NCBI RefSeq assembly: GCF_004087835.1
Contig: NZ_CP035119.1
Coordinates: 1,922,001-1,986,000 of the forward strand
Length of the DNA stretch: 64,000 nucleotides
DNA from: Halorussus pelagicus
GTDB taxonomy: Archaea > Halobacteriota > Halobacteria > Halobacteriales > Haladaptataceae
Reading direction: 5' to 3'
In this document: positions 12,145 through 22,952 of the stretch, one piece after another
Layout of the letters: each line of letters begins with the position of its first letter
Numbering within the stretch: the stretch's first letter is position 1
Made by a program: the position numbers and the translations under genes
The notes under the pieces: model-generated
Seen by the model: only the letters and a program-made list of their open reading frames with translations
Databases searched by the model: none
What the model was told of the DNA's origin: nothing

Positions 12145-12663
12145 TCAGTCGCTGGCGGCCGACGCCGCGCTCCCGTCGGCGGTCCGCGAGCGCCAGATGC
12201 CCTGCGCGTACGCGCCGAGGAACATCCCGCTGATAGCTATCAGGACGGGGTAGTTCCCGATGCCGACGCTGGCGTAGGCCGCGCCCGGACAGATGCCCGA
12301 GATGCCCCATCCGACGCCGAAGATGACCCCGCCCGTGAGGACGTTCCGGTCGAACGACTTCAACCGTCGAGCGTATGCTCGCCCGGTCAGCGGCGCGCGG
12401 TCGAGGACGTTGACCCCGATTGCGAACGCGGTTCCCGCGACGACCGACCCGACGCCCAGCACGAACAGCAGGCCGAAGTCCTCGAACTGGAGGAAGTCCA
12501 GCACGACTTCGGGACGGGCCATCCGACTCAGGCCGAGTCCGAAGCCGAATATCAAGCCGCCGACCACGACGACGGGCAGGAACAGGGGGTGGCGGTCCCG
12601 CTCGGTCCCCGTTGCTCCGCCGTCCCCGCTGTCTCCGTCGCCTTCTCTCTTCGGGGCGCTCAC
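12145..12663 (-). CDS. YeeE/YedE-type sulfur transporter, second half
   Basis: This 172-residue membrane protein starts at GTG 12663, overlapping the stop of the preceding gene, so the pair is translationally coupled. It has four or so helices and the YeeE/YedE signature GVGWGISGICPGAAYASVG near residue 120, including the conserved Cys. Such proteins import thiosulfate or related sulfur compounds. In many prokaryotes one longer protein carries both halves; here they are separate genes. Confidence 0.85.
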   Translation of the reverse strand: MSAPKREGDGDSGDGGATGTERDRHPLFLPVVVVGGLIFGFGLGLSRMARPEVVLDFLQFEDFGLLFVLGVGSVVAGTAFAIGVNVLDRAPLTGRAYARRLKSFDRNVLTGGVIFGVGWGISGICPGAAYASVGIGNYPVLIAISGMFLGAYAQGIWRSRTADGSAASAASD

Positions 12664-13145
12664 GGCGACACCCCCGCGGCCTGCACGAGTTGCGCGGTCA
12701 CGATGGCGACGCCGAGGAACGTCGCCACGTTGACCAGCGAGGTGGGAGCCACCGACCCGACGCCGCAGATGCCGTGGCCGGAGGTACACCCCTTTCCGAT
12801 TCTGGTGCCGACGCCGACGAGGACGCCCCCGACGAGGAGACGCCACCACGACACCTCGGTCGTCCATCCGAAGTCGCCGAACGCCAGCGCGTAGACGGCC
12901 GCGCCAGCGACGATACTCAGCGTGAACGCGACTCGCCAGTCCCGCGACGCGATGTACTTCGCGCGGTTGAACCGCGACGCCTCGGAGATGTACGACAGCG
13001 TGGATTCGAGGAACGTGCTCGCGCCCGCGGGAATCGCGGTGGCGAGGTAGATGACGGCGGTGCCCAACCCGATGAGCGCGCCGCCCGCGGCGTACCGCCA
13101 GACTCCGTTCGGGAAGAGGTCCGCGAACGTTACCAGTGGTTCCAT
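12660..13145 (-). CDS. YeeE/YedE-type sulfur transporter, first half
   Basis: This 161-residue protein has about four membrane helices and the first-half motif RIGKGCTSGHGICGV near residue 118. That motif contains conserved Cys residues thought to relay sulfur through the channel. It forms a coupled pair with the next gene. Four bases separate it from the rhodanese/metallo-beta-lactamase gene upstream. The operon logic is uptake of thiosulfate or persulfide, then intracellular oxidation and sulfur relay. Confidence 0.87.
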   Translation of the reverse strand: MEPLVTFADLFPNGVWRYAAGGALIGLGTAVIYLATAIPAGASTFLESTLSYISEASRFNRAKYIASRDWRVAFTLSIVAGAAVYALAFGDFGWTTEVSWWRLLVGGVLVGVGTRIGKGCTSGHGICGVGSVAPTSLVNVATFLGVAIVTAQLVQAAGVSP

Positions 13146-13149
13146 GGTC

Positions 13150-14355
13150 TCAGTCCTGCGTCGCTTCGCCGTCGGTCATCGCGTCGGAACTCGCCGCGCA
13201 GTTGTTCGGGCCGAGTTCCAACTCGAAGGCCTCTTCGTCGCTCTGTTCTTCCTGCCCGAGGTTCGTCGCAATGACCTCCTCGTAGTTCGCGGGCCGGGGC
13301 GGCATGTCCGAGAGGACCAACTCCACGAACTCGTCTTCGTCCAGCGTCAGCGCGTCCATCGTCTCCTTCAAGTTGCCGATAGTCTCTGTGTAGGTGCCGT
13401 CCTCGCGGGTGTCGGCGGCGTCGCTGAAGTGTGCGCCACCCACAATAACGTCGTCGTCGAGCGTGAGGATGCGCTCCTGTAGCGACTCGTAGAGCTGGCG
13501 GGCCGCGTCGGGCGCGCCCTTGTCGCCGCTCTCCAAGTCGGGTCGGGCGACGCTCTCGGCGAACAGGCCATCGCCCGTCAGCAAGACCGCGCCGTCCACG
13601 AGGTAGGAGGTCATTCCGGAGGTGTGGCCGGGCGTGAAGACGGTCTCTATCTCCACATCGCCGACCTGAAACACGTCGCCGTCCTCGGCGTCGGTCACCG
13701 CGCCGTCGTAAGTGACGCCGCGGTCGATTGCCACGCTCGGGAGAACGCCCTCGATACCCTCGGCGGCGAGCGCGCGGACGCCCGAGACGTGGTCGGCGTG
13801 GACGTGCGTGTCGATTGCGTACGTCAGGTCCGCTCCGAGCGCGCGGGCGTCCTCGCGGTACCTCTCGGTGAACGCTCGCAGGGGGTCGATGACCGCGGCG
13901 TCGTCGCCGGAGACGACGAGGTAGCTCATGCAACCGCTGGACGGGCGCTGGTACTGCGCGACGGTCGCGTCGGTGTCGGCGTCGATTTCGACGGACTCGA
14001 AGATTCGCGCCCAGCCTTGCATGCCGTCCGCGAGGGTGTGGGCGTCGTAGCCGCGCTCGACGAGTTCGCCAGCGACGTACTCGCTGGACTCTCCTTTTCC
14101 ACAGAGGACGGTAATCTCGCGGTCGTCGGGCAGTTGCTCGAAGACCTCCTCGTCGGGGTCGCCCGCGAGGAACTCGAAGTAGGGGACGTTCGAACTCTCG
14201 ACGTTCTCGCCGTCGATGGCCCACTCGTCTACGTCGTCGGGGACGCGCGTGTCGAGGATAAAAACCTCCTCGCCGCTCTCGATGCGGTCTTTCAGGGTTT
14301 GGGGGTCGGTGCTTTCGACCTCCACGTCCGGAGTTGGGAACTCTGGTTCGCTCAT
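13150..14355 (-). CDS. Rhodanese-persulfide dioxygenase-like fusion protein
   Basis: In this 401-residue protein, residues about 15-125 form a rhodanese domain with active-site loop CGKGESS near residue 85. Residues about 140-330 form a metallo-beta-lactamase domain with the metal motif THVHADHVSG and later TPGHTSG. Together they resemble persulfide dioxygenase (ETHE1-like) fused to sulfurtransferase, but with the rhodanese at the N terminus. The likely reaction is oxidation of low-molecular-weight persulfide to sulfite plus transfer of sulfane sulfur. The C terminus is acidic and unassigned. It leads the minus-strand sulfur operon. Confidence 0.85.
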   Translation of the reverse strand: MSEPEFPTPDVEVESTDPQTLKDRIESGEEVFILDTRVPDDVDEWAIDGENVESSNVPYFEFLAGDPDEEVFEQLPDDREITVLCGKGESSEYVAGELVERGYDAHTLADGMQGWARIFESVEIDADTDATVAQYQRPSSGCMSYLVVSGDDAAVIDPLRAFTERYREDARALGADLTYAIDTHVHADHVSGVRALAAEGIEGVLPSVAIDRGVTYDGAVTDAEDGDVFQVGDVEIETVFTPGHTSGMTSYLVDGAVLLTGDGLFAESVARPDLESGDKGAPDAARQLYESLQERILTLDDDVIVGGAHFSDAADTREDGTYTETIGNLKETMDALTLDEDEFVELVLSDMPPRPANYEEVIATNLGQEEQSDEEAFELELGPNNCAASSDAMTDGEATQD

Positions 14356-14401
14356 TACGTCTTATCCAATCGGTTGCTCCCTGATAAGCATTTCTATAGT
14401 T

Positions 14402-14418
14402 TTGCACAATACTTGCAA
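14402..14418. promoter_or_regulatory. Candidate operator in the divergent sulfur promoter
   Basis: TTGCA-N7-TGCAA is a perfect inverted repeat with 5-base arms in the AT-rich region between the rhodanese-fusion gene and the tusA gene. It is 47 bases upstream of the rhodanese ATG and next to the TATA-like ACTATAGAAA on the minus strand. It could control both directions. The related palindrome at 12105-12121 supports a common regulator. Confidence 0.4.
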
Positions 14419-14637
14419 TACACGCTTCGCGGTTGCCGTGGTGTCGCTGTGGCGTCTGATACGGAATCAGCGTAAAGCGTCTAGAATGCTGTTCTAAGCG
14501 CCTTTTGTTCCGCCCTGTACTGAACACACCGGAATATCCTTGAAAAGAGAAATGGACAGTAAGCCCAAGAACCAACAACTTTTTATCCTCGACACCGGTA
14601 TTGCTTAGTACGCACAAGACAGAACACTGGTGATACA

Positions 14638-14883
14638 ATGAACGACGCATACGACGTTACTGAGACGCTCGACGTGAAAGGACAGTCCTGCCCGATGCCC
14701 GTCGTCAAGTCCAAGCAGGCGACCGACGGACTCGACGACGGCGACCTGCTGGAAGTGATTGCGACCGACGCCGGGAGTGTGAGCGACATCGAGGGATGGG
14801 CGAACACGACCGACGGCGTCGAACTCGTTGACCAGCGAGAGGGCGACGACGTGTACAAACACTACGTCCGCAAGACCGAGTAA
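14638..14883 (+). CDS. tusA: TusA-family sulfur carrier
   Basis: This 81-residue protein has the diagnostic CPMP motif (GQSCPMPVVKSKQA, Cys near residue 18) used to carry persulfide sulfur. TusA proteins pass sulfur to partners in tRNA thiolation, cofactor assembly or sulfur oxidation. Here it stands just ahead of a DsrE-like gene and divergent from the rhodanese fusion, pointing to sulfane-sulfur relay. A GGTGAT ribosome-binding-like sequence precedes the ATG, and a TTTTTATCC promoter element lies about 55 bases upstream. Confidence 0.92.
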   Translation: MNDAYDVTETLDVKGQSCPMPVVKSKQATDGLDDGDLLEVIATDAGSVSDIEGWANTTDGVELVDQREGDDVYKHYVRKTE

Positions 14884-14886
14884 TCC

Positions 14887-15471
14887 ATGAGCACGGACAC
14901 GCAACCGGCGGCCGAGACCTCCGGCGACACCGAAGACGTGGCGGCGCTCCGCGCTCGCGTCGAGGAGTTGGAGACCGAACTCGGCGAGGTGAAAGCCGAG
15001 GTCGGGGACGACCGGAAGAAGATGACCATCGTCGCCACGAAGGGGACCTTCGACATGGCGTACCCGCCGCTCATCCTCGCCAGCACTGCGGCCGCGTTCG
15101 GGTGGGATGTCGTGGTTTTCCACACGTTCTGGGGACTGGATATCCTCCACGAGGAGAAGTCCGAGAACCTGAAACTGAGTGCGGTCGGCAACCCGAGCAT
15201 GCCGATGCCCGACGCTGTCGCCGCGCTCCCGTTCATGGACTCGATGGCGACCAGGATGATGGAGTCGAAGTTGGACGAACAGGGCACCGCGACCATCGGC
15301 GAACTCATCGAACTGTCGCTCGATACCGGCGTGGACTTGCAGGCCTGCCAGATGACGATGGAACTGATGGACTACGACGAAGCGGAGTTTTACGACGAGG
15401 TGACGACCGGCGTCGGCGCGGCCACCGCGCTCGAACACATGGCCGACGCCGACATCCAGTTGCTCGTCTGA
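14887..15471 (+). CDS. DsrE/DsrF/DrsH-like (COG2210) sulfur-relay protein
   Basis: This 194-residue protein follows tusA by three bases. A charged coiled-coil-like segment (about residues 20-42, ALRARVEELETELGEVKAEV) precedes a DsrE-fold domain starting KKMTIVATKGTFDMAYPPLI. Conserved features are FHTFWGLDIL and LQACQMTMELM, the latter with the likely reactive Cys. COG2210 proteins are TusA partners in thiosulfate or polysulfide transfer and often hold sulfane sulfur at the membrane. This completes a small sulfur-relay module. Confidence 0.88.
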   Translation: MSTDTQPAAETSGDTEDVAALRARVEELETELGEVKAEVGDDRKKMTIVATKGTFDMAYPPLILASTAAAFGWDVVVFHTFWGLDILHEEKSENLKLSAVGNPSMPMPDAVAALPFMDSMATRMMESKLDEQGTATIGELIELSLDTGVDLQACQMTMELMDYDEAEFYDEVTTGVGAATALEHMADADIQLLV

Positions 15472-15636: not shown

Positions 15637-16521
15637 CTAACGAACCAACAGGTCGAGTTGGTGCGCGCAGTAGACCAACTCGGCGTCGCCGATTTGCTCG
15701 CGGCGTCGTGTTGCCCACTCCGCGATGCGGTCGTCCTTGATTCCGCCTTCCTTGCGGACCGCTCCGGCGACCATCGCCACGATGCAGTCGAGAAAATACG
15801 CCTCGTCGGCGGGATAGCCCCCCTCACGCGGGTGGACGACCCAGTCGGACCCGGCCGCCGCGAGGACCTCGCCGGTCTCGCTAGCTTCCGCGAGGAGGTG
15901 GCGTCCGGCCCGACTGTCGCCCCCGTCGTCCAGATGCCGGTGAAACGAATCGAGGAATCGCTCCTCGAAGTCGGGGTCGTGAACCGGGTCGAAACTCGTC
16001 GCGCCGTCGTAGGTGATAGGGCAGTACGCGAGACCGTCGGACGCGAGCGCGCCCCGGAACGCCGCGAGCGCGTCGGCGGGGTCCGCCAGATCTACGAAGG
16101 CCTGAGCCACCACGAGGTCGAACTCGCGGTCGGTCGCATCGAGGAACTCGAAGGCGTCGGCGGTCCGAAAGCGGACCTCGGTCCGGCGCTGTCCCCGAGT
16201 GAGGACGACTCGGTCGTCCGCGTTCTCCCCCGCGCGCCGGACCGCGAATCCGCGCGGGGCGGCCCACGCTGGCAGACGCTCGCGCGCGAACGCGACGTTC
16301 TCCGGGTCGATGTCGAGCGCAGTGTACTCCACGCGGTCGGGAGGCCACGGTCGAGCGAGCAGTCGGGTGACACTCGACCCGATTCCCGCCCCGACCTCCA
16401 GCACGCGAAGTCGGTCATCTTCCCGGCCGCGAATCTCCTCGGCGAGTCGGGTCTCGACGCGGCGGTCGAGCGCGCGGTCGTCCACGCTTCGCTTGGCGGA
16501 GAGATAGCGTTGGAAGTTCAC
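15637..16521 (-). CDS. Class I SAM methyltransferase of the pterin/glycosyl cluster
   Basis: This 294-residue protein starts at GTG 16521, overlapping the glycosyltransferase stop by four bases. The SAM motif VLEVGAGIGSSVTRLLARPW lies near residue 40. It is followed by the strand-2 acidic end TALDIDPENVAFARERLPAW and motif IV FDLVVAQAFVDLADP. It is the last gene of a run of three overlapping or nearly touching genes. It probably methylates the product of its neighbours, possibly on the sugar or pterin; the acceptor is unknown. Confidence 0.82.
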   Translation of the reverse strand: MNFQRYLSAKRSVDDRALDRRVETRLAEEIRGREDDRLRVLEVGAGIGSSVTRLLARPWPPDRVEYTALDIDPENVAFARERLPAWAAPRGFAVRRAGENADDRVVLTRGQRRTEVRFRTADAFEFLDATDREFDLVVAQAFVDLADPADALAAFRGALASDGLAYCPITYDGATSFDPVHDPDFEERFLDSFHRHLDDGGDSRAGRHLLAEASETGEVLAAAGSDWVVHPREGGYPADEAYFLDCIVAMVAGAVRKEGGIKDDRIAEWATRRREQIGDAELVYCAHQLDLLVR

Positions 16522-17621
16522 GGCGCGGTCTCCCTCGGCGCGGACTTCGACGCCTCGGCGACGGTTTCGAGGAAGCGCCGGGCCGTCGTCATCGACTCGT
16601 CCCACCCCGGATGGCGCTCGAAGCGTCGCCGGGCGGCCAACCCCATCTCTCGCAGGCGCTCGCGGTCCACGCAGAGCGTTTCGACAGCCTCGGTGACGGC
16701 CGCGGAATCTCCGGGCGCGACGAGAAAGCCGTCCTCGCCGCGGGTCACGAGTTCGGTCGCACCGCCCGCGCTCGTTGCGAGCGCGGGCAGACCGAACCCC
16801 ATCCCCTCCAAGTAGACGATGCCGTAGCCCTCGAACAGCGAGGGGACCGCGAGCAGGTGGCTTTCGGCGAGGCGGTCGGCGAGCGCGGCGTCCGAGAGGC
16901 GACCCTCGAAACGCACCGCGTCGGCGATTTCGAGAGATTCGGTCCGCTTTCGGACCGTTCGGGCGTACTCCTCGTCGGTCGCGCTCCCGACGACCGAGAG
17001 TCGCCAGTCGCCTGCGACGCGGGCCAGTCCGTCGAGCAGGACGTGGAGACCCTTCCGCGGGACAAGGCTCCCGACGAAGACGATTTCGAAGGGGTCGCGC
17101 TCGGCGCGGGCGGCGATTCGCTCCGGAGTGATTTCCGGGTCGAATCGGTCGCCCGCGGGTCTGACGACGGCCGAGGGGCGCGGGGAGCGAGGTCCGGCGA
17201 GTCGCTCGGCGGCGCGCCGGGTCGCCTCGCTGGCGTAGAGCGCGGCGTCGGTCGAGCCGAGGTAAAGGCGCTCTACGGCCCGGTAGACGACGTTCTGCCA
17301 CGCGGGCCACTGCTCGCTCGCGCGGAGGTGGTGGACGACTGCGACGATTGGGACCGAGACGGCGCGATTGTGCCCGACCAGCGAGGGGTGACAGAGTTCG
17401 TCCTCGACGAGCAGGTCGAACCCCCGGAGTCGGCGGCGGAGCGAGCGGCGGACGCGAGGGTCGAGGTGGTCCGCGAGCGCGCGAGGGTAGTCGCGCCACG
17501 GCAGGGAGACGACGGTGACGCGGTGGCCCGCCTCGCGGAGCGCGCCCGCCAGTTTCCGGTCGTAGAGGAACCCGCCCGTCGTGGTTTCGAGGTTGCCGTA
17601 CACCACGAGACCGACGTGCAT
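16518..17621 (-). CDS. GT-B (GT4-like) glycosyltransferase
   Basis: This 367-residue protein begins MHVGLVVYGNLETTTGGFLYDR, a typical GT4 acceptor-binding N terminus. Its C-terminal donor domain has VGSLVPRKGLHVLLDGL and the E-x7-E signature EGYGIVYLEGMGFGLP. It should transfer a sugar from a nucleotide donor in the cytoplasm. It sits between the pterin-enzyme gene (two bases upstream) and the overlapping methyltransferase, so a small-molecule acceptor made by that pathway is more likely than a cell-wall polymer. Confidence 0.85.
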   Translation of the reverse strand: MHVGLVVYGNLETTTGGFLYDRKLAGALREAGHRVTVVSLPWRDYPRALADHLDPRVRRSLRRRLRGFDLLVEDELCHPSLVGHNRAVSVPIVAVVHHLRASEQWPAWQNVVYRAVERLYLGSTDAALYASEATRRAAERLAGPRSPRPSAVVRPAGDRFDPEITPERIAARAERDPFEIVFVGSLVPRKGLHVLLDGLARVAGDWRLSVVGSATDEEYARTVRKRTESLEIADAVRFEGRLSDAALADRLAESHLLAVPSLFEGYGIVYLEGMGFGLPALATSAGGATELVTRGEDGFLVAPGDSAAVTEAVETLCVDRERLREMGLAARRRFERHPGWDESMTTARRFLETVAEASKSAPRETAP

Positions 17622-17623
17622 CG

Positions 17624-18001
17624 TCAGACCTCGCGGCGGTGGGAGGCCCACGCCACGTCGTCCTCTTGCAGTTTGACGGTCAGGGCATCGATTTCCGGCG
17701 CGTCGAGACCTCGCCGGAATCGCTCGCCGAAGACGCGCGCGAAGTGTTCGAGACTCGGGTTCAACCCCTCGAACGCGGGCAGGTCGTTCAGCGTGGCGTC
17801 CCGGTAGCGGGCGACCGTGGCGTCGATTCGATCCTCGACGGCGTCGATGTCCGCGAGATAGCCGTGTTCGTTCAGTTCCTCGCCAGCCAACTCGACCGTC
17901 GCGGTGTAGTGGTGAGAGTGGAGGTCGCCCTCGGGACCGGGGTCGGGGACCGTCAGGAAGTGCTGTGCCACGAACTCGCGCTGGACCGTGACGGCGTACA
18001 T
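17624..18001 (-). CDS. PTPS/QueD-family pterin synthase, PTPS-III-like
   Basis: This 125-residue T-fold protein has zinc-ligand candidates H14, H28 and H30, in AQHFL and LHSHHY. In QueD and PTPS a cysteine lies four residues before the first His of HGH; here that position is E24 (EGDLHSH). Replacement of Cys by Glu is the hallmark of PTPS-III, which cleaves dihydroneopterin triphosphate toward hydroxymethyl-dihydropterin. The conserved SLEHFARVF and late LQEDDVAW stretches match the second active-site half. A pterin precursor role is therefore likelier than queuosine synthesis. Confidence 0.82.
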   Translation of the reverse strand: MYAVTVQREFVAQHFLTVPDPGPEGDLHSHHYTATVELAGEELNEHGYLADIDAVEDRIDATVARYRDATLNDLPAFEGLNPSLEHFARVFGERFRRGLDAPEIDALTVKLQEDDVAWASHRREV

Positions 18002-18122
18002 ACCACGTAGGCCACGACGGCGACGTTCTTGAAAGCCGGGGGCGAACTCGGTGGGAGTTTTGAGTGGTGTCGGCAGTAGCGCACTTCCCCTCCCCGTCCA
18101 CCCGTAGCTATCGCTCTCCCAG

Positions 18123-19166
18123 TCAGTATTCGAAGACCACACCGAGCGCCTCGCCTGGGCGCTCGTCCAGCAGTTCGTACGCTTTCCTCGCCTCACTGAT
18201 TCCGAACTCGTGAGTCACGAACCGCTCGGGGTCACTCTCGCGCAGGCGGTCCCACGCAACGTCCATCCGGCGCTCCTTTGACCACCGACCCCGGAGTTCC
18301 GGGTCGATGGTGCTGACCTGACTGCTCTCGACGCTGACGCGACTCCGGTGGAATCGCCCGCCGAGGTCCAACTGGGCGGGTTTCGTCCCGTACCACGACC
18401 CGACGACGACCCGGCCGTCGTACCCCGTCGCCGCGATGGCCGAGTCCAGCGCGTCGGGACAGCCCGAGAGTTCGTATGTCAGGTCCGCGCCCGCGATTTC
18501 GTCATCGGGGGTTTCGGTCTCGCTGCCGCCATTCTCGAACCGGTGCCGAACGCGCTTTCCGGCGTCGCCCTCGGGGTCGAACGCCGCGTCGGCACCGAGG
18601 GCGAGCGAGCGCTCGCGCCGCTCGGGGTAGCAATCGAGAGCGACCAGTTCCGCGAGCGGGAACTCCCCGAGAAGCGCCGTCGTGAGCAGGCCGACCACGC
18701 CCTGCCCGAAGACGACCGCGCGCTCGCCGAGTCGGGGCGCGCCGTCCTGCACGAGATTCACCGCGGTCTCGACGTTCGGCAGGAACGCGGTCCCGGTCGC
18801 CGAGCAGTCGTCGGGCACGGCCAGCACGTCTTCGACGGGCGCACAGAAGTGGCTCTCGTGGGGGTTGAACCCGAACACGCGCCGGTCGAGCCACGACGAG
18901 TCCACGCCCGGTCCGACGGCCTCGACCCGGCCGACGGCGGCGTAGCCGTACCGGAGCGGGTACTCGAAGGTGCCCGCGAGCGCGTCGATGGTCGCGTCGG
19001 CGGCCATCCCGGTCGGCACCTCGCCGCGGTAGACCAGCAGTTCCGTGCCGGGGCTGACCGCCGACCGCTCGGTTCGAACCCGGACCTCGCCCTCGTCGGG
19101 GTCGCGTCTCTCGCGTTCGCGCACCTCCACCGCCCGCGGTTCCGTGAAGTAGAGTGACCGTGGCAT
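18123..19166 (-). CDS. BchC-like medium-chain dehydrogenase
   Basis: This 347-residue protein is MDR-fold and is usually labelled zinc-binding alcohol dehydrogenase. It starts with EPRAVEVRERERRDP and has SAVSPGTELLVYRG where catalytic-zinc enzymes have a CGSD-type Cys. Its nucleotide-binding segment is VVFGQGVVGLLTTALLG. The lack of the usual Cys ligand and the SPGTE motif resemble the BchC-like subgroup. It probably oxidises or reduces a hydroxyalkyl side chain, such as that of a pterin. It is 121 bases upstream of the pterin-synthase gene on the same strand. Confidence 0.78.
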   Translation of the reverse strand: MPRSLYFTEPRAVEVRERERRDPDEGEVRVRTERSAVSPGTELLVYRGEVPTGMAADATIDALAGTFEYPLRYGYAAVGRVEAVGPGVDSSWLDRRVFGFNPHESHFCAPVEDVLAVPDDCSATGTAFLPNVETAVNLVQDGAPRLGERAVVFGQGVVGLLTTALLGEFPLAELVALDCYPERRERSLALGADAAFDPEGDAGKRVRHRFENGGSETETPDDEIAGADLTYELSGCPDALDSAIAATGYDGRVVVGSWYGTKPAQLDLGGRFHRSRVSVESSQVSTIDPELRGRWSKERRMDVAWDRLRESDPERFVTHEFGISEARKAYELLDERPGEALGVVFEY

Positions 19167-19248: not shown

Positions 19249-19842
19249 TCACCGAGCGGAGCCGCCGAGGACCGTTTCGACCGCGCCGCAGAGTCGCTCG
19301 AACAGGGGTTTTGCCACCGGGTTTGCGCCGACGCCGAGGTACGCGCGCTGTGGCGCAAACTCCCCCGAACGCATCCGGAGCGCCAGCGCCACCGCGCGGT
19401 GGTTGCCGTCGGCGACGTAGCGAGGCACGCACCCCTCGCGCGTCGAGACGACTAGCGGGCCTTGGGGCATCTCGTCTACGAAGTCGAGAACAGTCTCCAC
19501 GTCCACGCCGGTCTCGGCGGTCAGTTTCTCGGGGTCCTCGCTGGCGATTCGGTCGGCCGCGCTCCGCACCGTCCCGTCCGGCGAGAGGTCGCGCCACCGG
19601 AGGTTCGCGGGACCCGCGACGACTCGGAGGTCCGCGAAGTCAGCGCGGTCCAGCGTCGTCTCGTACCACGTCACCGGGGCGTCCCGCCAGACGAACGCCG
19701 CCGCGCCGGGTTTCCTGTCGAGCAGTTCGTCGAGGGCTTCCCGCTCGGACAGCGAGTCGATGGGAAACCACTCGGCGTCGGGGTGAGACCGCTCGACTCG
19801 AAGCCACTCTCGGAGGACCTCGACCTGAGCAACGCGGTGCAT
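19249..19842 (-). CDS. Uncharacterised protein with a ParB/Srx-like DGNHR motif
   Basis: This 197-residue soluble protein starts MHRVAQVEVLREWLRVE. The segment RYVADGNHRAVALALRMRSG near residue 143 resembles the DG-x-HR catalytic loop of ParB/sulfiredoxin-fold proteins, though the domain is atypical. A preceding GPLVVSTREGC stretch fits a strand into that loop. It is 82 bases upstream of the dehydrogenase gene on the same strand and may belong to the same unit. Function is unknown; the fold suggestion is tentative. Confidence 0.6.
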   Translation of the reverse strand: MHRVAQVEVLREWLRVERSHPDAEWFPIDSLSEREALDELLDRKPGAAAFVWRDAPVTWYETTLDRADFADLRVVAGPANLRWRDLSPDGTVRSAADRIASEDPEKLTAETGVDVETVLDFVDEMPQGPLVVSTREGCVPRYVADGNHRAVALALRMRSGEFAPQRAYLGVGANPVAKPLFERLCGAVETVLGGSAR

Positions 19843-20116
19843 CCGACGGGACTACGCGTCGCATGCACTCAATTCCACCTCTCGTTCGGACGGCATCGAG
19901 CGGTAACCACCGATTGTAACTCGCGAGAACGCCACCCCGTTCGCCGCTCGCGGACGCGCTCGCTGGGGGCGATTCGACCCGAATTAACAGCAGATTTACG
20001 CGACTGGTAGCATCTCCCCAACAGAGTTATTGGTCGTTTCCCTTCCCGGCGATACTCTGGATATATTTTACGGTCTGCGGGTATTAAGTCCGGAAAATCC
20101 TAACTCTCGAACCGGC

Positions 20117-20869
20117 ATGGTGTCACCTGACCAATTCGACGCACTGACGTACTGGACCCTGTGGATAACCGCGGCCGCGATGGGCGTGGGGGCCGTCGTC
20201 CTCTACGTCAAAGGCCGAGACATATCCACGGAGGAAGGCCGCGAACACGCGGTCGTATCCATCTTCATCCCGGCCATCGCGGCCACGATGTATCTCGCCA
20301 TGGCGCTCGGGTTCGGCGTCTCCCGAATCACGCTCGCTGGCGGCCAAGAACAGCTCGTATTCTGGGGTCGATACGCTGACTGGGCCGTGACGACGCCGTT
20401 GTTGTTGCTTGACCTCGCACTGTTCGCGGGCGCGGACCGCGAGACCATCGGGACGTTGCTCGGACTCGACGTGTTCATGATAGTCACCGGGTTCTTCGCC
20501 GCAAGTTCGGCCCAGCCCGCGAACCGCTATCTCTGGTGGGCCGTGAGTTCGGGCGCGTTCGTCGTCATCCTCTACGTCATCTTCGCCAAACTCCCGACGT
20601 TCGCCAACAGCTACGGTACCGACCGCGCGAGCAGTTTCGGCAACCTCCGGAACCTGTTGGCTGTGCTGTGGTTCGCCTACCCCTTGCTGTGGGTGGTCGG
20701 TACCGAGGGTGCCAGCGTGGTCCCGCTCGGCATCGAGACGGTCGGCTACGCCGTCCTCGACATCACCGCGAAAGTGGTGTTCGGCTACGCCCTACTGAGT
20801 AGCGTTGCCAGTCTCGCACCGCGTCGCCGCGAGACCGAGACCGGTGCTGGCGTCACGGCCGACGACTGA
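20117..20869 (+). CDS. bop: Bacteriorhodopsin, light-driven proton pump
   Basis: This 250-residue seven-helix microbial rhodopsin keeps every proton-pump residue. Helix C reads RYADWAVTTPLLLLDLALF, with R85, acceptor D88, T92 and donor D99 (bacteriorhodopsin R82/D85/T89/D96). Release-group glutamates E197 and E207, counter-ion D215 and retinal Schiff-base lysine K219 (LDITAK) are present. It pumps protons outward across the cell membrane. The ATG at 20117 is preceded by the TATA-like GATATATTTTAC. The carotenoid-to-retinal fusion gene follows 151 bases downstream. Confidence 0.97.
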   Translation: MVSPDQFDALTYWTLWITAAAMGVGAVVLYVKGRDISTEEGREHAVVSIFIPAIAATMYLAMALGFGVSRITLAGGQEQLVFWGRYADWAVTTPLLLLDLALFAGADRETIGTLLGLDVFMIVTGFFAASSAQPANRYLWWAVSSGAFVVILYVIFAKLPTFANSYGTDRASSFGNLRNLLAVLWFAYPLLWVVGTEGASVVPLGIETVGYAVLDITAKVVFGYALLSSVASLAPRRRETETGAGVTADD

Positions 20870-21020: not shown

Positions 21021-22952
21021 ATGCCCGCGCTCACCTACGTCGAGTTCCTGTCAATTTTCCTCGCGGTGCCGATTGCGGCACTGGCGCTCGCAGTCGCCAG
21101 CGAGACCGACAACCCCCGTCGCGTCCTCGCGGGCGTGACCGCGCTGGTCTGCATCGCGGTCAGCTACACTGCGCCGTGGGACAGTTATCTCATCAGCCGG
21201 GGCGTCTGGACCTACGGCGAGGGCGTCGTGGCGGTCCGCTTCGCCCGCGTTCCCCTCGGCGAGTGGCTGTTCTTCGTCCTCCAGACGACGGCGACCGGTC
21301 TCTGGTATCACCTGCTCGCGCCCGCCATCGACCCCGCGCTTCCCGGCAGAGATAGCCCCAGAAGGCACGACGCTCGGACCTTGAGCGCGCGGACCGCGGG
21401 GGCGGCCGGATGGCTCGCGCTCGCGGCGCTCGGCGGTGTTCTCGCAGTCGCCGGGTCAGGCACGTACTACCTCGGGATGATTCTGGTCTGGGCCGCGCCC
21501 GTCCTCGCGTTCCTCTGGGCGGTTGGCGGCCCGGTCCTCCGGCGCGACCGCCGACTGCTCGCCGCCGCAGTGGCGGTTCCGACCCTCTACCTCTGGGTCG
21601 CCGACTGGTACGCCATCCGGACCGGCCTTTGGGCCATCGCTCCGGAGTACAGCACGGGACTGCTCGCCTTCGGTCTCCCGGTGGAGGAGGCAGTCTTCTT
21701 CCTGCTGACGAACCTCCTCGTCGTGCAGGGTCTCGTGCTGTTCGACTGGGTGGTCGCCCGCGCGGCCGAGCGCGACCCGACGTACGCGGTGGCGGGACTC
21801 CTCCCGGACGGACTCGCTCGGCGCGTCCTCGGTTCCGGTCCGACATCGCCGGACTCCGCATCCGGGAGCGAGTCGGCGGATTCGGCCGCGGCCGAATCCG
21901 CCTCGCGCGACGAGTCCGCTGGGGGCGACCGTGAAGCGGACATCCTTGCTCGCGCGCTCGTCCGACTCGCGGTCGCACCCGCGTCGGTCGCGCTCGCGCT
22001 CGTCGCCGCGCTCTTCGGTCTCGGCGCGGGCGGCGACCTCCCGATAGCGGTTCGCTACCTCCCGTTTCTCGCCAGCCTCGTCGTCTTCGGCCTGCCTCAC
22101 GGCGCGGCCGACCACCTCGCAGTCGGGCGACTCGGCGGCCGTCACCCGCTAGTCGCGGTCGGCGTGGCCTACCTCGTCGGCGGCGCACTCTATCTCGCGC
22201 TCTGGCTGGTCGCGCCCCTCCTCGGGTTCGCCTCCTTCATCCTGCTGACGTGGTACCACTGGGGGCAGGGCGACCTCTACGTCCTGCTCGCGGTCGGCGA
22301 CCACCTCCGGACGCGAGGCCAGCGCCTGCTCGCGCTCGCGGTCCGGGGCGGTCTCCCGATGGTGGTCCCGCTGGTCGCGTTCCCCGAGGTCTACCGGTCG
22401 GTCGCCGCCGCGACGGTTCGGCTGTTCGACCCCGGTCTCGTCGGCGTCGCCGCGCTCGACGCCGCGTTTCGGCCCGAAACGCGGCTCGCGGTCGGGGGCG
22501 GACTGGCCGCGCTCTCGCTGGCGGCGCTGGCGCTCGGTGGCGTCCGCGGCGGCTGGCACAGTCGCGGCTGGCGAATCGACGCGCTCGAAACCGCGCTTCT
22601 CTGGGCGTACTTCCTCGTCGTGCCGCCGGTCCTCGCGGTCGGTCTCTACTTCTGTCTCTGGCACTCGGTCCGCCACGTCGTCAGGCTTCTCGCAGTCGAA
22701 GACGGCGGGAGTTCGCTCGCGCCGGGCCGACTCGATGTGGGACTCGCCGGATTCGCTCGGGACGCGTTCCCAAATACGGTCGGCGCGCTCGTCGTCCTCG
22801 GCGGACTCGCGGTTCTCGCGCCGCCCGAGGAGGGTTTCCTGTCGCTCCTCGCGCTGTATCTGGTGCTACTGGCAGTGCTGACCCTTCCACACACCGCGGT
22901 CGTGACGTGGATGGACCGGCGCGAGGGCGTCTGGTCGGTCGAGTCGGGTTAG
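21021..22952 (+). CDS. Fused lycopene beta-cyclase and Brp/Blh beta-carotene dioxygenase
   Basis: In this 643-residue membrane protein, residues 1 to about 270 are a lycopene-cyclase region (CrtYc/CrtYd type) with APWDSYLISRGVW, GEWLFFVLQT and VEEAVFFLLTN. An acidic Ala/Ser linker occupies about 272-306. Residues about 310-643 are a Brp/Blh 15,15-prime-dioxygenase. Its iron-ligand-type histidines lie in GLPHGAADHL, WYHWGQGDLY, CLWHSVRHV and LPHTAVVTW. One polypeptide could thus turn lycopene into beta-carotene and cleave it to retinal for the adjacent rhodopsin. The linker DNA contains a perfect 28-base palindrome. Confidence 0.92.
   Translation: MPALTYVEFLSIFLAVPIAALALAVASETDNPRRVLAGVTALVCIAVSYTAPWDSYLISRGVWTYGEGVVAVRFARVPLGEWLFFVLQTTATGLWYHLLAPAIDPALPGRDSPRRHDARTLSARTAGAAGWLALAALGGVLAVAGSGTYYLGMILVWAAPVLAFLWAVGGPVLRRDRRLLAAAVAVPTLYLWVADWYAIRTGLWAIAPEYSTGLLAFGLPVEEAVFFLLTNLLVVQGLVLFDWVVARAAERDPTYAVAGLLPDGLARRVLGSGPTSPDSASGSESADSAAAESASRDESAGGDREADILARALVRLAVAPASVALALVAALFGLGAGGDLPIAVRYLPFLASLVVFGLPHGAADHLAVGRLGGRHPLVAVGVAYLVGGALYLALWLVAPLLGFASFILLTWYHWGQGDLYVLLAVGDHLRTRGQRLLALAVRGGLPMVVPLVAFPEVYRSVAAATVRLFDPGLVGVAALDAAFRPETRLAVGGGLAALSLAALALGGVRGGWHSRGWRIDALETALLWAYFLVVPPVLAVGLYFCLWHSVRHVVRLLAVEDGGSSLAPGRLDVGLAGFARDAFPNTVGALVVLGGLAVLAPPEEGFLSLLALYLVLLAVLTLPHTAVVTWMDRREGVWSVESG
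21875..21902. repeat. Perfect 28-bp palindrome inside the cyclase-dioxygenase linker
   Basis: Positions 21875-21888 are the exact reverse complement of 21889-21902 (half-site GGCGGATTCGGCCG). In frame it encodes alternating Ala, Ser, Asp and Glu residues of the linker. A related half-site (CGGATTCGGC) forms a hairpin inside the cbiZ gene at 39552-39581. It may be an in-frame palindromic insertion element. Confidence 0.6.

Follow-up and report, generated by a model that had tools for sequence, protein, structure and literature searches.

Enzymes of the PTPS superfamily (PF01242, T-fold) are divided into classes by sequence motif, with CxxxHGH marking PTPS-I, the class of QueD (PMC5041015). The biopterin class PTPS-II carries CxxxxxHGH and the folate class PTPS-III carries ExxHGH, while the orphan PTPS-IV is represented by SCO6650 (PDB 3D7J), and a 2017 network study found GTP cyclohydrolase (GCH) II and RibD_C genes near this last class (PMC5445326). 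Two further systems are relevant: the cyanobacterial pteridine glycosides (BGluT/PgtA, cyanopterin), and the early riboflavin/F420 pathway, which uses RibA or ArfA-ArfB followed by RibD_C/ArfC. We analyzed a 64,000-nucleotide stretch of the genome of Halorussus pelagicus (NZ_CP035119.1, positions 1,922,001 to 1,986,000, hereafter the window), in which genes for a PTPS-like enzyme, a GT4-type glycosyltransferase (GT), a methyltransferase (MT) and a BchC-like dehydrogenase (DH) lie together, and compared this cluster with the described systems. The cluster probably represents, in haloarchaea, a biosynthetic operon common to bacteria and archaea. In the open-access literature neither the haloarchaeal cluster nor the association of DH, GT, MT and CDP-alcohol phosphotransferase (CDP-OH) was found described, and the product is nowhere named.

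The four-gene unit in haloarchaea

All four genes are encoded on the minus strand. The MT gene (15637-16521, GTG start) specifies a class I S-adenosylmethionine-dependent enzyme of 294 residues (Pfam Methyltransf_12/25/11), for which no solved relative was found by sequence, and it overlaps by 4 bases the GT gene (16518-17621; Pfam Glycos_transf_1, 4e-31), which begins with an ATG at 17621 (ATG 17619-17621). A 2-base gap separates the GT gene from that of the PTPS-like enzyme (17624-18001, stop tca at 17624-17626; 125 residues; PF01242, 8e-25), which contains the motif GPEGDLHSH...RDATLND, and 121 bases lie between the latter and the DH gene (18123-19166; 347 residues; Pfam ADH_zinc_N, 1e-8). 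The preliminary description of this DNA had given the same genes, strand, overlap and 2-base gap, and the sequence and translations confirm them.

The PTPS subfamily is present in 234 of 391 haloarchaeal species and 64 of 86 genera, about 40% of the species searched being without it. Neighbors were tallied in 40 haloarchaeal loci sampled down the PTPS ranking over many genera, the loci being picked by their PTPS matches: DH accompanies PTPS in 37, MT in 36, CDP-OH in 29, GT in 25, a DUF7475 membrane protein in 20 and GCH III in 16, counts that come from related genomes and leave out small proteins without a reference. Adjacency across haloarchaea, on which the preliminary description had staked its reading beforehand, therefore holds for DH and MT. 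At the family level, PTPS occurs in 21 of 28 genomes, and DH, GT and MT adjoin it in nearly all of those. The four genes are a real conserved unit whose order is beyond chance.

In this family a fifth gene (19249-19842, minus strand) belongs with the four. It encodes a 197-residue protein of unknown family with a conserved DGNHR motif, and a close orthologue (E < 1e-43) is found in all but one of the 21 PTPS-positive family genomes and in none of the 7 PTPS-negative ones, numbers that are interdependent through shared ancestry. The orthologue is also kept in two genomes where it is unlinked to the cluster, and the seven PTPS-negative genomes have weaker paralogues or none. In other families the gene stands beside GCH III or MT (loci L153, L166 and L188). 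Profile searches returned no Pfam match and no solved-structure match, and the AlphaFold model, with two sequences as input, is poor (pLDDT 44).

Active site and class of the PTPS-like enzyme

Profile, fold and zinc-histidine pattern all place the enzyme in the PTPS superfamily. The structure model is a T-fold (pLDDT 93) with Z scores of 14-17 to PTPS structures; the nearest is SCO6650 (Z 17.2, rmsd 2.9, 125 residues), which sequence comparison also ranks first among solved structures (E 6e-9), followed by PTPS and QueD at Z 14-15. In the alignment the zinc histidines (H14, H28 and H30) and the pterin-anchoring glutamate (E113) are kept, as in QueD, PTPS-II and PTPS-III, and by this histidine pattern the enzyme is a putative zinc binder. 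H14, H30, E24, D68 and E113 are invariant within the subfamily and H28 nearly so. The subfamily motif is GxE[GN]xxH[SA]H, in which the first of the two histidines is an asparagine in a few members, and most cluster members have a conserved aspartate ahead of LND (RD..LND). Glutamate occupies the position of the QueD catalytic cysteine and aspartate that of the QueD catalytic histidine. The catalytic cysteine and the Asp-His pair of PTPS and QueD are both missing, which counts against the preliminary description in its original form.

The cluster members differ from each of PTPS-I to PTPS-IV. Their GxE[GN]xxH[SA]H and RD..LND do not match the PTPS-I motif CxxxHGH with its Asp-His pair; the motif region has no cysteine, as PTPS-II would demand; the glutamate stands four, not three, residues ahead of the first histidine, and serine or alanine takes the place of the glycine of PTPS-III. 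The neighboring genes are also other than those of QueD, PTPS-II and PTPS-III. In place of the PTPS-IV signature FGPAQ, seen as GPAQ in PTPS-IV loci L121-L124, the window protein reads PGPEG, and where PTPS-IV has GPAQ..HGA for ExxxHSH and has lost the second motif histidine, the three zinc histidines are all present in this subfamily. The two form separate groups in the tree (100/99 and 100/98). By motif and tree, the enzyme is placed in a distinct subfamily near the orphan PTPS-IV.

Two roles already attached to such enzymes can be weighed on these data. Database records label the gene 6-carboxytetrahydropterin synthase, which would make it a misplaced folate or archaeosine enzyme. However, neither CxxxHGH nor ExxHGH is present, the neighbors differ, the gene is missing from the 40% of species given above, and the same genome holds a second PTPS gene of QueD type (L002) with none of DH, GT and MT beside it. 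On motifs, paralogue and distribution, folate and archaeosine roles are not supported and must be considered very improbable. A role in coenzyme F420 synthesis has been stated for PTPS-IV from unpublished work (PMC5041015), and F420 also uses a ribitylamino-pyrimidine. CofG, however, scores above the cut-off in all 11 PTPS-negative haloarchaea tested and in none of the 19 PTPS-positive bacteria tested, so that F420 synthesis and this PTPS are uncoupled; an F420 role is disfavored on this distribution, and we hold it to be a very remote prospect.

Bacterial loci and the probable precursor

The cluster is not specific to haloarchaea: the same PTPS subfamily and core are found in gammaproteobacteria (the order of Methylomicrobium) and in Bacteroidota/Rhodothermota (the phylum of the Rhodothermaceae locus). 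Every one of the 22 bacterial loci has DH ahead of PTPS and RibD_C directly upstream of DH; RibA (GCH II) accompanies them in 20, often fused to RibD_C. MT is present in 17 and GT in 8, with MT following in most and GT in others, and CDP-OH is near some. In the PTPS tree the haloarchaea form one group (85/64) that adjoins the Bacteroidota/Rhodothermota sequences and is nested inside bacteria. A single transfer between the domains is likely from these comparisons, and the DH tree leaves its direction undecided. In four related gammaproteobacterial loci an HbpS-like gene of the haem-degrading type stands ahead of the RibA-RibD_C fusion (L099 5074-5511).

The bacterial loci of the subfamily thus have the PTPS-IV-type neighborhood of GCH II (PF00925) and RibD_C (PF01872), which is not adjacent in the window itself; haloarchaeal loci have GCH III instead. 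The PTPS-IV loci, on plasmids of Streptomyces, Thiodictyon, Methylosinus and Peteryoungia, are similar also in their order (DH-PTPS-GT-MT) and in having RibA, RibD_C, creatininase or CDP-OH nearby. Two of the bacterial PTPS-IV loci include a cytochrome b561 gene, between MT and RibD_C or just past RibD_C (L122 11528-12085; L124 12055-12582), which hints that the product may act in redox reactions.

GCH III (ArfA) is an archaeal enzyme non-homologous to GCH II. Among the 16 genomes with GCH III in the cluster, it is a second copy in 10 and the sole genome copy in 6. In Haloarcula plasmids GCH IIa adjoins DH-PTPS-MT. The PTPS of Haloarcula marismortui ATCC 43049 (L116 8001-8374) is matched as two separate pieces where no gene is annotated, and therefore looks frameshifted; H. 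sinaiiensis (L126) has an intact copy. That GCH II and GCH III, unrelated enzymes serving one pathway, occur at the same place in the operon argues for the precursor that they provide. We consider it quite probable that the cluster is a biosynthetic pathway using this GCH II/III precursor.

The first enzymes in the operon are those of the riboflavin/F420 pathway, but here they stand with DH, PTPS, MT and GT, and no gene for a deaminase, lumazine synthase, riboflavin synthase or CofG/CofH was seen at the clusters. RibD_C was without a deaminase domain in 10 of 10 proteins scanned. The operon therefore has nothing that would remove the 2-amino group, and the 2-amino-4-oxo (pterin-type) half of the molecule should survive, which favors a pterin-type product. 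Where no creatininase gene is nearby, residue 105 (E. coli numbering) of the bacterial RibA is tyrosine, in 20 of 20 loci; in the Streptomyces RibA, with a creatininase gene adjoining, it is methionine. Given the role that we take Tyr105 to have in RibA, Met105 together with creatininase would presumably fit a formyl intermediate in need of a deformylase.

A start from the product of GCH I or MptA (dihydroneopterin phosphates) would lead instead to a glycoside of the cyanopterin or solfapterin type, and the GCH II/III neighbors would be coincidental. Pteridine glycosides have been described in cyanobacteria and Sulfolobus (PMC3546692), dihydroneopterin derivatives are the normal ligands of the PTPS fold, and the cluster shares with the cyanobacterial systems a pterin enzyme and a GT4-type GT, the latter with a weak C-terminal similarity to BGluT (PMC3546692). 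Tetrahydrobiopterin glucosyltransferase (9v0l, 5ze7) is indeed among the solved matches to the GT, over the C-terminal domain only (E 1e-12), where other GT4 enzymes outscore it. The cyanobacterial pathway, however, starts from GCH I, and no GCH I gene was seen in the loci examined, in which GCH II with RibD_C (bacteria) or GCH III (archaea) recurs at the same operon place; the cysteine and Asp-His pair are missing, and DH and MT form the core while GT is often absent. We therefore regard this start as improbable, and a cyanopterin-type pathway gives way to one whose dedicated cyclohydrolase is the riboflavin-type GCH II/III.

Proposed route and product

In the route that we propose, the opening of GTP would fall to GCH II (RibA) in bacteria and to GCH III (ArfA) with a deformylase in haloarchaea, giving 2,5-diamino-6-ribosylamino-4(3H)-pyrimidinone 5'-phosphate, a predicted step that is strongly supported by gene context. 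The RibD_C reductase would then convert the ribosyl to a ribityl group without deamination at C2; this step is supported in bacteria, and here we infer that the housekeeping reductase ArfC performs it. In the window organism the substrates of these two steps would come from the single arfA (GCH III) and single RibD_C genes of the genome, both housekeeping genes that lie away from the cluster. DH may next oxidize the ribityl 2'-OH to a ketone that closes on the 5-amino group. Since reducing C1' and then oxidizing C2' amounts to the Amadori rearrangement of GCH I, a dihydroneopterin-phosphate-like pterin could arise without GCH I. The putative zinc-binding PTPS, in which Glu and Asp stand where QueD has its catalytic Cys and His, may reshape the side chain or help ring closure. 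From their families, MT is predicted to methylate the product and GT, where present as here, to glycosylate it, while CDP-OH would add a phospho-linked group in other genomes.

DH is core to this system, since it is conserved nearly wherever PTPS is. Its best NCBIfam model is bchC (TIGR01202, 8e-15), at 54.7 bits far under the cut-off of 291, so that the earlier name BchC-like stands as a resemblance and goes no further. The invariant residues are E42, Y73, H103, S257, W258 and H273; the catalytic-zinc motifs of zinc alcohol dehydrogenases are absent, with SxGTE and YGY replacing the Cys and GHE motifs.

We give an even chance to the general route, in which a tailored pterin-like small molecule is made from the riboflavin-pathway pyrimidine. 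The exact redox-Amadori scheme, with GCH II/III opening GTP, RibD_C reducing C1', DH oxidizing C2' and the variant PTPS finishing, is put forward tentatively and is itself doubtful. It is possible, though we think it unlikely, that a pterin made in such a scheme is cofactor-like or signalling and that in archaea the cyclohydrolase of the operon was replaced by the archaeal one. Several points weigh against the route. The pathway is known here from genes alone, its ring closure is drawn from chemistry alone, and a DH lacking the usual zinc ligands may not oxidize alcohols. In this organism the cluster has neither RibD_C nor GCH III beside it, one query, run without a positive control, found no close CDP-OH in its genome, and GT, MT and CDP-OH vary between genomes. 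This variation means that the products probably differ.

A non-pterin product would account for part of the evidence. The ribitylamino-pyrimidine might be kept, or another bicyclic compound of 8-ribityl or flavin-like type formed. In that case DH and PTPS would act on the ribityl chain, and GT, MT and CDP-OH would assemble a product that is glycosylated or phospho-linked. The ribityl side chain left by RibD_C follows flavin logic, and CDP-OH near most of the haloarchaeal and some of the bacterial loci, as well as the two cytochrome b561 genes, would suit such a compound. We find it rather unlikely, as no lumazine-synthase-like or deaminase gene was seen and a PTPS-fold enzyme with a dehydrogenase fits pterin ring closure better. 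The most economical interpretation is a tailored pterin-like product, because it joins a T-fold PTPS enzyme, a retained 2-amino group and tailoring by GT and MT. To this extent the "glycosylated, methylated pterin" of the preliminary description survives, with two changes: GT is an optional part (25 of 40 haloarchaeal and 8 of 22 bacterial loci), so that "glycosylated" is not a defining feature, and "pterin" is still something that we infer.

Other genes recur around the clusters. A Gfo/Idh/MocA oxidoreductase is found near CDP-OH in several haloarchaeal loci (L126 4919-6889, where it is fused to an aldo-keto reductase; L117 3643-5382) and may be a further pathway enzyme. In the window, a bacteriorhodopsin-like gene (20030-20869, plus strand) and a long brp/lycopene-cyclase-like gene (21021-22952, plus strand) lie back to back with the 197-residue protein gene. 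A brp-like gene also adjoins that gene in Halorussus aquaticus (L026) and is all that recurs; an opsin match was present in none of the fetched loci, and a bacteriorhodopsin link was dropped. Downstream of the cluster (12145-15471), reading of the sequences indicates an apparent sulfur-transfer group with two YeeE/YedE-like membrane proteins, a metallo-beta-lactamase/rhodanese fusion, a TusA-like and a DsrE-like protein.

Some 60% of the haloarchaeal species searched, together with several bacterial groups, possess a multi-gene pathway for which annotation offers only queuosine synthesis or generic enzymes. If the proposed route is true, it would be a second way from GTP to pterins and would provide the present subfamily, a near relative of the orphan PTPS-IV, with a function. 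Unusual pterins were reported from haloarchaea decades ago, and the pathway, if true, may explain them.

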